From Nitrospirales bacterium (GTDB lineage Bacteria; Nitrospirota; Nitrospiria; Nitrospirales; UBA8639): a stretch of 62,707 nt of DNA. The notes under the pieces are model-generated. The model made no database searches. It had not been told where the DNA came from and saw nothing but the letters and a program-made list of their open reading frames with translations. A program made the translations under genes and the position numbers. Position 1 is the stretch's first letter; every line of letters begins with the position of its first letter. The DNA lies in the NCBI GenBank assembly GCA_021604005.1, contig BQIV01000031.1, forward strand, positions 1 through 62,707, given 5' to 3'. Shown here in pieces: positions 2,999-62,368 of this stretch.

Positions 2999-3496
2999 AT
3001 GGCAAAGAACTCGAAAGAACTGCAGCTTCTCAAGGATCATTTATCAAAAAATAATCTCAAACTCACACGGCAGCGTGAAAACATTTTAAGTAATTTCTTA
3101 AAGATGGAGCACGTGACCGCCGAGCAAATGTATCGTCTGTTATCGAAGAAAGATCCGCATATCGGACTTGCCACCGTGTACCGGACGCTCAAACTGTTCT
3201 GCGACATGGGTGTTGCGCAAGAACAACATTTTGGCTCGCAAACTCAATTCGATAACATTGCCCATAAAGGTCATCACGACCATCTTATCTGCACGGCATG
3301 TGAAAAAATCATTGAATTTGAAAACTGCCAAATTGAAGAACTCCAGGAAGAAGTCGCCGCGAAAAACGGATTTTCCATTAAGACCCATCGTTTAGAACTC
3401 TATTGCGATCCGATCCGATTATCCAGTGGGAATTGCAAAAACTGTAGCCGCCCACTAACCACACAAGCACCCTACCAGATCGACAGTGCTCATTAA
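2999..3496 (+). CDS. fur: Fur-family ferric uptake regulator
   Basis: 165 residues, close to the usual Fur length. The N-terminal winged helix (res ~1-85) carries the recognition region GLATVYRTLKLF. The dimerisation domain has the metal-site signature HHDHLICTAC, then a second Cys pair CKNC near the C-terminus and IKTHRLELY. Fur binds AT-rich 19-bp operators as a dimer when iron is replete. An AAGGG site at 2983-2987 precedes the ATG. It is followed 21 bp later by the ferric-iron ABC operon, and Fur-box-like sites occur across this window, so an iron role is far more likely than zinc or peroxide sensing. The spacer between LELY and CKNC is longer than usual. Confidence 0.9.
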   Translation: MAKNSKELQLLKDHLSKNNLKLTRQRENILSNFLKMEHVTAEQMYRLLSKKDPHIGLATVYRTLKLFCDMGVAQEQHFGSQTQFDNIAHKGHHDHLICTACEKIIEFENCQIEELQEEVAAKNGFSIKTHRLELYCDPIRLSSGNCKNCSRPLTTQAPYQIDSAH

Positions 3497-13351: not shown

Positions 13352-13393
13352 TTGACAAACACTCAACCACTTAGATATTAATAATGGTTATCA
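13352..13393 (+). promoter_or_regulatory. Promoter with overlapping Fur-box-like site
   Basis: TTGACA (13352-13357) and an AT-rich -10 (TATTAA, 13376-13381) frame a promoter. TAATAATGGTTATCA at 13379-13393 matches the 7-1-7 Fur operator TGATAATNATTATCA at 12 of 14 positions and covers the -10. The next gene is the Com-like zinc ribbon at 13457, so that gene is probably Fur-repressed. Confidence 0.65.
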
Positions 13394-13977: not shown

Positions 13978-15408
13978 ATGAAGTCAACGTTGACGTTGGG
14001 GGCACTCGGAGTCGCCGTCATGCTGTCGGGACCGTTTGGATTTATGGACAGGGCCAATGCGGCCGACCGGATGGAAGCAACATCTTCAACCCCCGTGAGC
14101 ACTTTATCGGCCGAAGATATTAATCACATCGTCGATCAGCGCGTGCAAGACATTTTGAACAACCGCATGCAACCCCCGCCACCAAAGGATTTCAGTCAAA
14201 CGCCGGGACTTGGGGAAACCACGCAAACACCGCAAAGGTCCAAATCCCAAATTCAGCAACAAGGCGTGGATTGGGTGACCGGTGGTTCCGTCCTTCAAGG
14301 TGGCCGGACGATTTATGCCAAACCCTTTATCCGTGCACCAAAAACAATCGTCGGTGGATACATGGACTTTACTATTTCCGACTGTAACCACGCCGGCTCT
14401 CGTGATTGTTCGGAAGGTCTTGAATTCGACCAAGAACGCTTTGTGCCGTTCTTTTATTCGCAAATTACCGATCGGTTGAGCATGGGTGCTGAAGTCGAGA
14501 TTGAACATGGCGGACCGCAAGGCAATCAAGGCGACGGAGACGTCAAAATCGAATTTGCCACGATGGACTATCGCTTTACCGATTGGCTCAACTTTCGCGG
14601 CGGTATCCTGTTGATCCCACTCGGACGATTCAACCTGGTTCATGATTCACCGTTGAACGATCTCCCATTACGGCCGATGGTGAGTCGACTGATCATTCCA
14701 TCCACCTTTGCCGAGTCCGGCATCGGAATTTTCGGAACGGTGTACCCGACTCAGTTGGCCAAGGTCGACTACGAATTTTACGTCACGCAAGGGTTTGACG
14801 GCGGAAGCAGCCAAGCCAACATCGGTGGCACCTTTGATGAAGGGGGATACCGAGGCAACCGAGGGAGTTTCAAGACCGACAACAATCAGAACAAAGCTAT
14901 TGTCAGCCGCATTTCAGTCAGCCCGATCCTCGGCATCGAAGTCGCCGGATCCGTGCACCATGGCAAATGGGACGATGAAGGCCGACATGATATGACCATT
15001 GTGGCCGTCGACGGTCTACTCCAACGCGGACCCTTTGAAGTGCTTGGGGAAGCGGCATGGACACATGTTGAAGGCGGCAATCGCACACCTGTAGCGGGCA
15101 CCCCGCCGCAAAAAATGTCAGGCTACTATGTCCAGGGCAACTACCACTTCATGCCTGACGCGTTAAAGCAGGCCGCGCCGTCTTTCTTTTCCGATGCCTC
15201 AACCTTCACAGGGGTCATCCGGTGGGGGCAGGTCGATACGAATACGCAAAATAGCAACAATGTGAATGATATCAGCCGATTGACCTTCGGCGTAAACTTC
15301 CGTCCTGTGGAAGACGCCGTCTTTAAATTTGCCTACACCCTCAATGATCATGAGGATGATCCAGGGCAGCGAAATGGATGGCAATTTAGCATGGCCACCT
15401 ATTTCTAA
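13978..15408 (+). CDS. Outer-membrane porin-like beta-barrel protein
   Basis: 476 residues. The signal peptide ends near ANAAD. Residues ~40-100 hold a helical/coiled segment (SAEDINHIVDQRVQDILNN) and a Pro/Gln linker. From ~115 to the end the sequence alternates as expected for a beta-barrel (IVGGYMDFTI, MGAEVEIEH, LNFRGGILLIPLGRFN), with a terminal aromatic residue (MATYF). It resembles phosphate-selective/OprO-like or DcaP-type porins. GGAGG precedes the ATG. It heads a run with a lipoprotein, an FMN-binding protein and a membrane protein, which suggests a trans-envelope redox or uptake role. Confidence 0.78.
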   Translation: MKSTLTLGALGVAVMLSGPFGFMDRANAADRMEATSSTPVSTLSAEDINHIVDQRVQDILNNRMQPPPPKDFSQTPGLGETTQTPQRSKSQIQQQGVDWVTGGSVLQGGRTIYAKPFIRAPKTIVGGYMDFTISDCNHAGSRDCSEGLEFDQERFVPFFYSQITDRLSMGAEVEIEHGGPQGNQGDGDVKIEFATMDYRFTDWLNFRGGILLIPLGRFNLVHDSPLNDLPLRPMVSRLIIPSTFAESGIGIFGTVYPTQLAKVDYEFYVTQGFDGGSSQANIGGTFDEGGYRGNRGSFKTDNNQNKAIVSRISVSPILGIEVAGSVHHGKWDDEGRHDMTIVAVDGLLQRGPFEVLGEAAWTHVEGGNRTPVAGTPPQKMSGYYVQGNYHFMPDALKQAAPSFFSDASTFTGVIRWGQVDTNTQNSNNVNDISRLTFGVNFRPVEDAVFKFAYTLNDHEDDPGQRNGWQFSMATYF

Positions 15409-17273: not shown

Positions 17274-17309
17274 AGCCCATGAGAGCCCTTCGCTCTCATG
17301 GGCTTTTTT
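17274..17309 (+). terminator. Rho-independent terminator after the porin/FMN operon
   Basis: AGCCCATGAGAGC and GCTCTCATGGGCT form a 13-bp stem with a 5-nt loop and a run of T. It is preceded by TGGCCAGAG-N9-CCAGAGCCCA, the same lead-in as the terminator at 20136. Confidence 0.92.
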
Positions 17310-17508
17310 ATTCATGCGAGGGGACGAACCCATCATTCGCTTCTCGTTGCGGGGGATCTCCTCCTGGGTCCCCCGCTCTTCAGTCTAGACAAGAGTCAAG
17401 AACATGCATATAAGAATGCGTTCTTAGAAAATTTTATATTCCCGACAGTAGATTATTTCCACATTATATACCGAGTCTTTCTTATTTCATAATGACGGAG
17501 GCATAGTA

Positions 17509-50125: not shown

Positions 50126-51232
50126 ATGAAAATTTTCCACACAATACAGTTCCGCCCCACAGTCCATCGGATGCTATTTGTCGCTCTCATGCTCTCATCC
50201 CTGCTGATTCCCGGGGTTGCACAGTCAGCCGACTCGCTTGTGGTGTACTCCGGACGAGCCGAACGACTCATCAAACCTGTCTTAGATCGTTTTGAAAAAG
50301 AAACGGGAATCAAGGTCCAGCTTCTGACATCGAAAACGGCGGAACTCGTCAACCGGCTTAGGGCAGAAGGTGAGAACACACCAGCAGATATACTCATCAC
50401 CAACGACGCAGCAGGGCTCGAACGGGCTCGACAACTTGGCCTGCTGCAGCCCCTGAGTTCGCAAGACAATATTCAAGCACATTCCTCGACCAAAGGCTCA
50501 GAGTCTCTTCCTCCATCAGATCTCAAAAATATTTTGAGCAATATTCCAGAACCGTATCGTGCTGATGACAATAGTTGGGTCGGATTGTCTGGTAGATTTT
50601 ACGTCGTGGTCTATAACACCACGAAGGTGAAGCCTGATGAGATAGAATCCATTCTCGATCTGGCTGACCCAAAATGGAAAGGGAAAATTGCCATAGAGAA
50701 TGCCGGGAGCGAATACCTGCAATCTGGAGTGTCGGTGATTAAAGCCGCACATGGGGAAGATGCGACTCGAAAGTTTTTGCAAGGCCTCAAAGACAATGCC
50801 GAGAACCGGGTATATGGAAAAAGTTCACAACTCGTCAAAGCCGTCGCACGAGGCGAAGTCTCGATGGGGCTCGTGAATCATTACTATGTGTTTCGACAGT
50901 TAGCGAAAGAGCCGAAAGCTCCGATTGCGACGCTCATGCCTGACCAACAACAAGGAGGCATGGGAGCCATTTTGAATGTTGCCGGGGTAGCCGTTACGAA
51001 ACCAACGAAACATGTCCGAGAAGCGCATCAGCTCGTCGCGTTTCTGGCCTCCTCCGAGGGACAAGAAATGTTTGCAGATATGAATAAAGAATATCCACTG
51101 AACCCTGAAGTAAAAAGTAATGACGTCCTTCCCAAACGGGCAAGCTTTCGAGCCGCAACGGTTCCGCTTGGCCAACTTAGTGACCTGCACGAACCGGCTA
51201 TGACGCTCATCGAAGAAGTCGGGATGCGATAA
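50126..51232 (+). CDS. Orphan periplasmic Fe(III)-binding protein (FbpA/FutA type)
   Basis: 368 residues from ATG 50126 (GAAAGGAAT upstream); the frame is open from 49712 but that part overlaps the divergent Slp gene. The signal peptide ends near AQSADS. VVYSGRAERLIKPVLDRF, GLSGRFYVVVYNT, DPKWKGKIAIENAGSEYLQS, GLVNHYYVFRQ and DMNKEYPLNPEV are shared with FbpA at 3518. An extra ~25-residue insert (QAHSSTKGSESLPPSDLKN) is present. No permease or ATPase follows, so it probably uses FbpBC at 4.6-7.7 kb or acts as an iron carrier. Unlike fbpA at 3.5 kb it carries the paired operator. Confidence 0.9.
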   Translation: MKIFHTIQFRPTVHRMLFVALMLSSLLIPGVAQSADSLVVYSGRAERLIKPVLDRFEKETGIKVQLLTSKTAELVNRLRAEGENTPADILITNDAAGLERARQLGLLQPLSSQDNIQAHSSTKGSESLPPSDLKNILSNIPEPYRADDNSWVGLSGRFYVVVYNTTKVKPDEIESILDLADPKWKGKIAIENAGSEYLQSGVSVIKAAHGEDATRKFLQGLKDNAENRVYGKSSQLVKAVARGEVSMGLVNHYYVFRQLAKEPKAPIATLMPDQQQGGMGAILNVAGVAVTKPTKHVREAHQLVAFLASSEGQEMFADMNKEYPLNPEVKSNDVLPKRASFRAATVPLGQLSDLHEPAMTLIEEVGMR

Positions 51233-51505: not shown

Positions 51506-51601
51506 CTCGGTGCCCCTCCCAATTTGCATAATTTTCCGGAAAATGAACATTCCCTCAGACATCTGCTAATGATATTTTTATTGAAAATGATAATTGAATT
51601 C
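51506..51601 (+). promoter_or_regulatory. Operator copy and Fur-like box before a candidate small RNA
   Basis: CCGGAAAATGAACATT (51536-51551) is a strong copy of the iron operator; a copy 21 bp earlier is poor. TGAAAATGATAATTG (51582-51596) matches the 7-1-7 Fur operator at 10 of 14 positions. The next gene in this direction is >340 bp away, past a terminator, so the likely target is the RNA at 51600-51782. Confidence 0.6.
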
Positions 51602-51782
51602 AAATTCATAAAAAACCTCAAACCCGTTTTTCCTCCGTCATTGTCCTCTGTATCGCCCAATGAGAATCTCCAGAAGTTTATCGAGGATAACACATCCAGT
51701 TGCACGCGAGGACAAGCCCGCACCACTTGTCCTCACTCCTGGCCAGAGCACCTCTCCTCCGGGGTGCTCTGGCACTTTTTTC
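51600..51782 (+). ncRNA. Candidate iron-regulated small RNA with C-rich loops
   Basis: The stretch lies between a Fur-like box and a strong terminator and has no convincing protein. Two adjacent hairpins are seen: GAGGACAAG/CTTGTCCTC (51708-51734, 9-bp perfect stem) and GCCAGAGCACC/GGTGCTCTGGC (51742-51773, 11-bp stem) followed by six T. The terminator loop is TCTCCTCCGG, complementary to Shine-Dalgarno sequences, and TTTTTCCTCC occurs earlier (~51630). C-rich unpaired loops are the targeting parts of iron-sparing sRNAs such as IsrR. This is a prediction from sequence only. Confidence 0.55.
51742..51782 (+). terminator. Rho-independent terminator of the candidate sRNA
   Basis: 11-bp perfect stem GCCAGAGCACC/GGTGCTCTGGC, 10-nt loop TCTCCTCCGG, then CAC and six T. 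Confidence 0.93.
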
Positions 51783-51943
51783 TACTCCCTTATCCGAGTT
51801 TAGTAAGGCATGCGGCATCAATTCTTTGCGATGAACCACACCCGACTTGTAATTATCGACAGCAATCTCTGGGCTAGAGGAAAATTCTTCACCTCTTGGA
51901 AGTTTCCATCAAAACTACTATGCCTGTTCAATGAAACACTGAC

Positions 51944-52063
51944 ATGAAAGACCAGATCATCATCCAAGGAGAGAAGGCCTCGCTCGTCAGCCTCACGGTA
52001 TCACTCTTACTGATTGCACTCTATGTCTTAGGAATTTTGATCTGTCCGGCGTTGCCTGTATAA
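51944..52063 (+). CDS. Possible 39-residue single-pass membrane protein
   Basis: ATG 51944 to TAA 52061-52063. The sequence has a charged start (MKDQIIIQGEKASL) and one clear hydrophobic helix (VSLTVSLLLIALYVLGILI) ending CPALPV. No good ribosome-binding site is seen. It resembles other small membrane proteins of iron loci, but conservation is unknown. Confidence 0.35.
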   Translation: MKDQIIIQGEKASLVSLTVSLLLIALYVLGILICPALPV

Positions 52064-52160: not shown

Positions 52161-52206
52161 ATACTGTTTCCAGCAATTTCGCATGTATTTCCGGTGAGCG
52201 AACACT
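52161..52206 (+). promoter_or_regulatory. Paired 21-bp-period operator, separated from its receptor gene by a MITE
   Basis: CCAGCAATTTCGCATG (52170-52185) and CCGGTGAGCGAACACT (52191-52206), period 21 bp. The gene it should control starts at 52502, 296 bp away; without the 141-bp element inserted at 52290-52430 the distance would be ~155 bp, like the other loci. Confidence 0.6.
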
Positions 52207-61516: not shown

Positions 61517-61562
61517 TTGACAGACCTATTAATTTCAATTATGATATTGATAATAGTTATCA
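61517..61562 (+). promoter_or_regulatory. Perfect promoter with overlapping Fur box
   Basis: TTGACA (61517-61522), 17-bp spacer, TATGAT (61540-61545), close to the ideal sigma-70 promoter. TGATAATAGTTATCA (61548-61562) matches the Fur operator at 13 of 14, the best in the window, and sits at the start site. Transcription would begin near 61552 and run into the hairpin at 61645-61692 and the redoxin gene. Confidence 0.82.
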
Positions 61563-61825: not shown

Positions 61826-62368
61826 ATGAACATTGGATCACCTATTCCCCCTTGGCGTGTTCCTACTTTTATCAAAGGCACACTCACCTTTTCCTCCCTC
61901 TCTCACCTTTCCACTCAACCATTGGTTCTCTGCTGTACACCATCACTCACTGCATCTCAAGCCTGGCTGCTCGAATCCCACATCAATGACTTCCACATAC
62001 ATCATACATTTCTCGCCACACTCGTTTCGCGGTATATGGGCTATGATGTGCCATGGGCTCTCCCCTCATCGAATTTTCGCCTGCCGCTCCTGACCGATCC
62101 ATTGAAGCGGGTGAGCCGTTCCCTTGGTCTTTCACGTAATCTGCCTCCTCAACGATGTGAAACGCTGTTCTTTGGCCAAAACGGTCGGCTAGCATTTCGA
62201 CTCATCCATGATTTGGATCTTCGTGGCATCATCCGAGTGCTGGAAATCACCAATCGTCATTTTTCCAGATCCCTTCCAACACCACTTGATTCGACACACC
62301 CTCCGGCGCTCAAGCCGTCCACATTCGAAGAAGTTGAGGCTCACACAGCGACGCACGTTCCAACATGA
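61826..62368 (+). CDS. Redoxin/peroxiredoxin-like thioredoxin-fold protein
   Basis: 180 residues from ATG 61826, behind GGAGGA; the frame to 61751 has no such site. IGSPIPPWRVPTFIKGTLTF and PLVLCCTPSLTASQAWLLES resemble the N-terminal part of AhpC/TSA proteins. The CC pair (res ~35-36) sits near the usual peroxidatic Cys position but the P-x-x-x-T/S-x-x-C motif is not intact. The later PSSNFRLPLLTDPLKRVSRSLGL follows the family pattern (short parts: LPLLTDPLKRVSRSLG). It is followed by a thioredoxin and preceded by a Fur-controlled promoter, so a role in iron-linked oxidative stress is likely. Confidence 0.65.
   Translation: MNIGSPIPPWRVPTFIKGTLTFSSLSHLSTQPLVLCCTPSLTASQAWLLESHINDFHIHHTFLATLVSRYMGYDVPWALPSSNFRLPLLTDPLKRVSRSLGLSRNLPPQRCETLFFGQNGRLAFRLIHDLDLRGIIRVLEITNRHFSRSLPTPLDSTHPPALKPSTFEEVEAHTATHVPT

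Follow-up and report, generated by a model that had tools for sequence, protein, structure and literature searches.

The locus examined here raises the question of whether a short stretch in an iron-uptake region encodes a regulatory RNA that acts on other transcripts when iron is scarce, or whether it belongs to the gene downstream. The window, that is, the whole 62,707-nt stretch of DNA that was analyzed, is contig 31 of a 4.7-Mb Nitrospirales genome and constitutes an iron-uptake island, encoding Fur, TonB, several TonB-dependent receptors, an extracellular solute-binding protein and a PepSY protein. A bacterioferritin-like gene, identified by reading of the sequence, lies at about 60.8 to 61.25 kb. 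The locus itself occupies a 1.26-kb gap between the gene of the extracellular solute-binding protein (fbpA-like; stop at 51232) and a TonB receptor gene (ORF to 54610). An earlier note on this DNA had proposed that positions 51600 to 51782 form a gene-less stretch encoding an iron-regulated small RNA with anti-Shine-Dalgarno loops. Our analysis suggests that this short RNA gene probably encodes a regulator of iron starvation not described before, in relatives of nitrite-oxidizing Nitrospira, a group from which hardly any such RNAs are known. Comparative evidence lends good support to the prediction of a small RNA under iron control that carries an anti-Shine-Dalgarno loop, by way of the conserved structure, the invariant CUCUCCUCC loop, the Fur layout kept in congeners and the related RNAs in other genera.

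A DNA search of relatives, several of which are represented by incomplete metagenome assemblies, returned homologues from the congeners G004, G002 and G003. Using a covariance model built from the window, G004 and G002 sequences (R1), we found a fourth copy in another genus (G042, E = 5.5e-14), where the operator element, a downstream small membrane-protein ORF and the TonB receptor are also present. The features of the locus are as follows.

3047 to 3403, plus strand: fur gene (PF01475, E = 1.6e-35), on the same contig as the RNA locus
51523 to 51551, plus strand: conserved 29-nt operator-like element TTTGCATAATTTTCCGGAAAATGAACATT; G003 and G004 share it letter for letter, G002 nearly so, and in G042 it can still be recognized
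51564 to 51573, plus strand: putative extended -10 element TGCTAATGAT of a promoter predicted from the homologue alignment (TGCTAAAAT in G002)
51580 to 51781, plus strand: proposed small RNA of about 200 nt, with a predicted 5′ end and a 3′ end at the terminator T-run (51776 to 51781)
51582 to 51602, plus strand: predicted Fur box TGAAAATGATAATTGAATTCA, 24.5 bits
51632 to 51636, plus strand: CCTCC run, not conserved in the alignment of four homologues
51698 to 51705, plus strand: conserved unpaired stretch AGTTGCAC directly before hairpin A, from homologue alignments
51708 to 51734, plus strand: hairpin A of 9 bp (9/9 pairs), arms GAGGACAAG and CTTGTCCTC, loop CCCGCACCA
51742 to 51773, plus strand: terminator hairpin B (11/11 pairs), arms GCCAGAGCACC and GGTGCTCTGGC, loop UCUCCUCCGG, followed by T6
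51944 to 52063, plus strand: ORF of a 39-aa single-TM small protein (MKDQIIIQGEKASLVSLTVSLLLIALYVLGILICPALPV) that follows the terminator and has conserved counterparts in G002, G004 and G042
52181 to 52206, plus strand: second occurrence of the operator-like element, ahead of the TonB receptor gene

Read from 5′ to 3′, the locus thus consists of the 29-nt element, the putative extended -10, the Fur box, the 5′ half of the RNA, AGTTGCAC, hairpin A, terminator hairpin B and T6. The Fur-like box proposed earlier held up well: when 25 Fur sites from other genomes were used to build the scoring matrix, the best score in any of 15 random windows was 20.9 bits, compared to 24.5 bits here. Among the homologues, G003 and G004 also have a strong box, that of G002 is weaker, and the G042 site scores poorly. 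Given that fur is present and that a Fur site marks the locus, repression by iron-loaded Fur is a reasonable expectation. The "iron operator copy" that was said to frame the stretch is real in the sense of the conserved 29-nt element and its second copy, although it sits upstream of the interval originally proposed. Likewise, the start at 51600 had to be given up, with the RNA unit beginning about 20 to 80 nt further upstream. The presence of a further operator copy before the TonB receptor gene suggests that the RNA forms a transcription unit of its own. As a side observation, the operator-like consensus GCATnnnTTTCYGGannnTGAACATT precedes the RNA and, in several genomes, TonB receptors; its regulator is perhaps of the AraC type.

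The stretch is intergenic, as had been claimed. Window ORFs do cross it, but in the homologues every frame is interrupted and none is conserved across the RNA, and a protein-coding reading was therefore rejected. The 39-aa protein encoded further downstream has a conserved CP motif near its C-terminus and gave no Pfam match.

What is conserved instead is RNA structure. The segment from 51600 to 51782 folds with −53.3 kcal/mol (z = −4.4, 0/200 shuffles as good), and both of the adjacent perfect hairpins described earlier were recovered, as was the strong terminator. With 13 pairs, the latter is the longest of the five terminator-like sites found in the region, compared to 1.1 such sites in shuffled sequence. 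Leaving out the terminator hairpin reduces the excess to a modest z = −2.0 (5/200 shuffles as good), so that the terminator supplies most of the folding signal. In a comparison of the window, G004 and G002, all 20 pairs are formed in every sequence, both stems being 100% paired, and sliding the partners out of register drops pairing to 38 to 47%. Five of the 20 pairs show double-sided compensatory changes, two in hairpin A and three in terminator hairpin B; with three sequences, these counts are small. Through these changes the terminator loop CCUCUCCUCCG stayed identical in 3/3 congeners, including the anti-Shine-Dalgarno-like CTCCTCC (CUCCUCC in the RNA) at 51754 to 51760. Both the covariation (n = 3), a check proposed in the earlier note, and the invariance of this C-rich run speak for a small RNA with an anti-Shine-Dalgarno loop; the second such run, the CCTCC near 51630, is present in the window and lacks conservation.

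The surroundings of the RNA vary among the congeners. In G004, the order of solute-binding protein, RNA and TonB receptor is retained, while the G002 homologue lies upstream of a TonB receptor with different genes on its 5′ side. G003 retains the operator and Fur box, while a deletion has removed the 3′ half, including both hairpins, along with the small ORF.

Weak R1 matches led to a second genomic context, upstream of a peroxiredoxin-like gene that occurs in 26 of the 49 genomes of the family. In many of these genomes, a Fur box is followed by two hairpins that have a loop rich in pyrimidines, by a terminator and, 45 to 60 nt further on, by the start codon; two-hairpin RNAs behind Fur boxes precede this gene in four genera. 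A second covariance model (R2), built from nine of these peroxiredoxin-upstream RNAs only, picked out positions 51686 to 51784 of the window as its only match in the window genome (E = 4.0e-5, or 5.3e-7 when searching the window alone). Because R2 was trained without the window locus and yet finds it, both sets look like one family. The window RNA therefore likely belongs to an RNA type that recurs, rather than being peculiar to this locus, with the R2 match as the strongest single argument. Homology is likely rather than proven, as models of this kind can also be drawn to short, GC-rich terminators that have two hairpins and pyrimidine loops; R2 misses G004, and where it aligns to the window, hairpin A is only loosely spanned. 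Among the best R2 matches, a Fur consensus within 400 nt upstream was found in 12/19 cases in family f1 versus 0/11 in family f3, a contrast that is partly circular since most of these f1 loci trained R2 or were noticed beside Fur boxes. The f3 matches, at first accepted as relatives of the window RNA, were dropped for their lack of Fur boxes (0/11).

Two further structures came up in these searches. Seven f3 loci (L092, L095, L100, L102, L105, L107 and L108) share a conserved three-hairpin RNA without a Fur box, most with a loop like CCCTCTCTTCCTCCTGAGG; it follows the end of a response-regulator-like gene and is apparently convergent with a bacterioferritin-like gene, both names being taken from translated fragments. 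In the window, a hairpin at 17303 to 17387 (GCGGGGGATCTCCTCCTGGGTCCCCCGC) with a CTCCTCC loop, which follows a terminator-like hairpin and precedes a gene with weak resemblance to diheme peroxidases (17509), is a weak match of both R1 and R2.

The window also carries a second C-rich RNA candidate, whose features are the following.

61542 to 61562, plus strand: predicted Fur box of the second candidate RNA, the best Fur site of the window at 30.8 bits
61621 to 61698, plus strand: second C-rich RNA, conserved, three-way-junction-like, with CCCTCCTCT in a loop, upstream of the peroxiredoxin-like gene
61826 to 62344, plus strand: peroxiredoxin-like gene, named from the weak AhpC/TSA_2 similarity of a relative; its relatives follow the two-hairpin RNA type in other genera

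In an alignment of five congeners, 95% of cells of this second RNA are paired and three double-sided changes occur, a covariation that is not clearly above shuffles (3 pairs, 87/500). Its shape differs from that of the two-hairpin RNAs.

The proximity of the related RNAs to a start codon is where the main rival to a trans-acting RNA has its footing, namely a 5′ leader under Fur control whose terminator is conditional, akin to an attenuator or riboswitch, and which would act in cis on the next gene: here that of the 39-aa membrane protein, elsewhere the peroxiredoxin-like one. Indeed, at each f1 locus read, the RNA lies upstream of a gene on the same strand, the terminator in other genera ends only 45 to 60 nt before the start codon, and the small ORF past the terminator is conserved. 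In addition, GAGGACAA (51708) could alternatively pair with TTGTCCTC at 51641 in the window. However, neither G002 nor G004 preserves this alternative pairing, the homologue alignment reveals no conserved sensor-like domain before the terminator, and the terminator is strong, with the small ORF beginning about 165 nt beyond it. Moreover, the downstream gene varies between loci while the RNA type and its C-rich loop are kept, and an RNA type that occurs beside different genes is what one would expect of a trans-acting RNA. We thus regard a leader as unlikely.

An ordinary intrinsic terminator attached to a short untranslated remnant of a promoter region, its C-rich loop being functionless, would account for the dominance of the terminator in the folding z-score and for the 5′ half of the RNA, which is poorly conserved in the homologue alignment. 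It sits badly with a loop that stays invariant while the stems change with compensation, with the similarly compensated hairpin A, and with a layout that recurs behind Fur boxes in several genera, making this explanation improbable.

How might such an RNA act, and on what? Hfq was not detected in six genomes by a search that did recover it from control genomes. For potential targets, we searched four genomes for the exact 8-nt loop complement GGAGGAGA at 2 to 11 nt before an ATG. The iron-enzyme start sites that the earlier note had expected did not stand out: the sites in G000 and G004 showed no iron-enzyme enrichment or theme, only three were shared by these two genomes, and the full loop complement was absent from aconitase start regions. 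Across 25 start regions of the window, the duplex energy with the loop tracks general Shine-Dalgarno strength, the loop pairing with any strong Shine-Dalgarno sequence, so that these energies do not discriminate targets. Given both results, it is from the promoter and the neighboring genes that we infer a role in iron sparing. Among the 25 window genes, the best loop complement is the start region of a 476-aa ORF without Pfam match (13978 to 15408), with a Fur-like site at 13373. That the RNA binds a protein or the ribosome, or titrates another RNA as a sponge, instead of silencing mRNAs is very improbable, for while the exposed CUCUCCUCC loop is generic, the search gave no target set and some anti-Shine-Dalgarno-loop RNAs (CcsR) are tied to a partner RNA-binding protein (PMC10253847), no partner gene was recognized adjoining the RNA and the downstream small ORF lacks a Pfam match.

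We therefore favor, with a probability of roughly 0.58, a Fur-repressed, Hfq-independent small RNA that acts in trans through an anti-Shine-Dalgarno loop. From the features above we infer its transcription and iron response, its action in trans and a block of translation at putative targets, along the following lines. When iron is scarce, Fur would leave its site at 51582 to 51602 and an RNA of about 200 nt would be made, ending at the terminator (51773 to 51781). The terminator hairpin would then present the loop CUCUCCUCC, imitating the anti-Shine-Dalgarno sequence of 16S rRNA, and this loop may pair with purine-rich ribosome-binding sites of selected mRNAs and block their translation without Hfq, with the outcome that iron is presumably spared or re-routed. 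Speaking against this model, besides the results of the target search and the loop's pairing with any strong Shine-Dalgarno sequence, are the position of related RNAs 45 to 60 nt upstream of the peroxiredoxin-like start, which also fits a leader, the poor Fur box of G042 and the hairpin deletion in G003.

More tentatively, and at somewhat less than even odds, we envisage that Nitrospirales have a whole family of such small RNAs, repressed by Fur and bearing anti-Shine-Dalgarno loops, and that some species carry two or more of these loci per genome. The family would spare iron independently of Hfq and would have evolved independently of RyhB, PrrF, FsrA and IsrR. In these bacteria, both nitrite oxidation and carbon metabolism rely strongly on iron enzymes, and a Fur-controlled small RNA would thus, if confirmed, show how relatives of nitrite oxidizers ration iron. 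It would also represent another independent invention of the anti-Shine-Dalgarno solution, in a setting where Hfq was not detected. Only three annotated small RNAs in Nitrospirae are listed in a review (PMC9029176), and our literature search found no paper on an iron-responsive one in this phylum. With relatives in other genera, the 200-nt locus offers a concrete object that is open to testing.

Comparison with known systems places the window RNA among RNAs of similar shape rather than in an existing family. No Rfam family reached threshold in the window or in ten homologue loci. The nearest, CcsR1 (RF02791), matched over its full length with 22.4 bits compared to a gathering score of 65.3, and no match at E 0.5 was seen in five homologue loci. 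We therefore rejected membership in the CcsR1/cuckoo RNAs, and the match fits a shared shape and motif instead. Like the alphaproteobacterial CcsR1, cuckoo and alpha-r14 NfeR1 RNAs, the window RNA has adjacent hairpins and a C-rich anti-Shine-Dalgarno loop that is kept while the stems diverge. In contrast, the CcsR1/cuckoo motif CCUCCUCCC is absent from its loops, which read CUCUCCUCCGG in the terminator and CCCGCACCA in hairpin A. For NfeR1, experiments are reported in which anti-Shine-Dalgarno loops silence mRNAs at the start region independently of Hfq (PMC10746234). CcsR is transcribed from an RpoHI/RpoHII promoter and adjoins a DUF1127 gene (PMC10253847), whereas the window RNA has a Fur site and no recognized DUF1127 gene, judging from the 39-aa ORF and the scanned neighbors.

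Among iron-responsive small RNAs, FsrA of Bacillus subtilis is Fur-repressed and has a C-rich motif with which it base-pairs to Shine-Dalgarno sequences (PMC9410917); it uses the FbpA/B/C chaperones, and the window RNA gave no FsrA match in Rfam. RyhB and PrrF depend on Hfq, and some species carry duplicates of ryhB and prrF (PMC9410917). The window RNA resembles both in its Fur box at the promoter, as read from sequence, and in the second C-rich RNA behind a Fur box in the same genome, and differs from them in lacking a RyhB or PrrF match in Rfam and in that Hfq was not found in six genomes. The RyhB/IsrR-type analogy drawn earlier can consequently stand, as it was worded there, as that of a putative functional analogue only. 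IsrR of staphylococci is Fur-repressed, has C-rich single-stranded regions and acts independently of Hfq (PMC9410917). At the level of sequence alone, the window RNA is IsrR-like in being intergenic, in its predicted Fur control, in its intrinsic terminator and in its C-rich loop, all in a different phylum; compared by description, IsrR comprises three stem-loops plus a terminator with three C-rich regions, while the window RNA comprises two hairpins with one conserved C-rich loop, that of the terminator.
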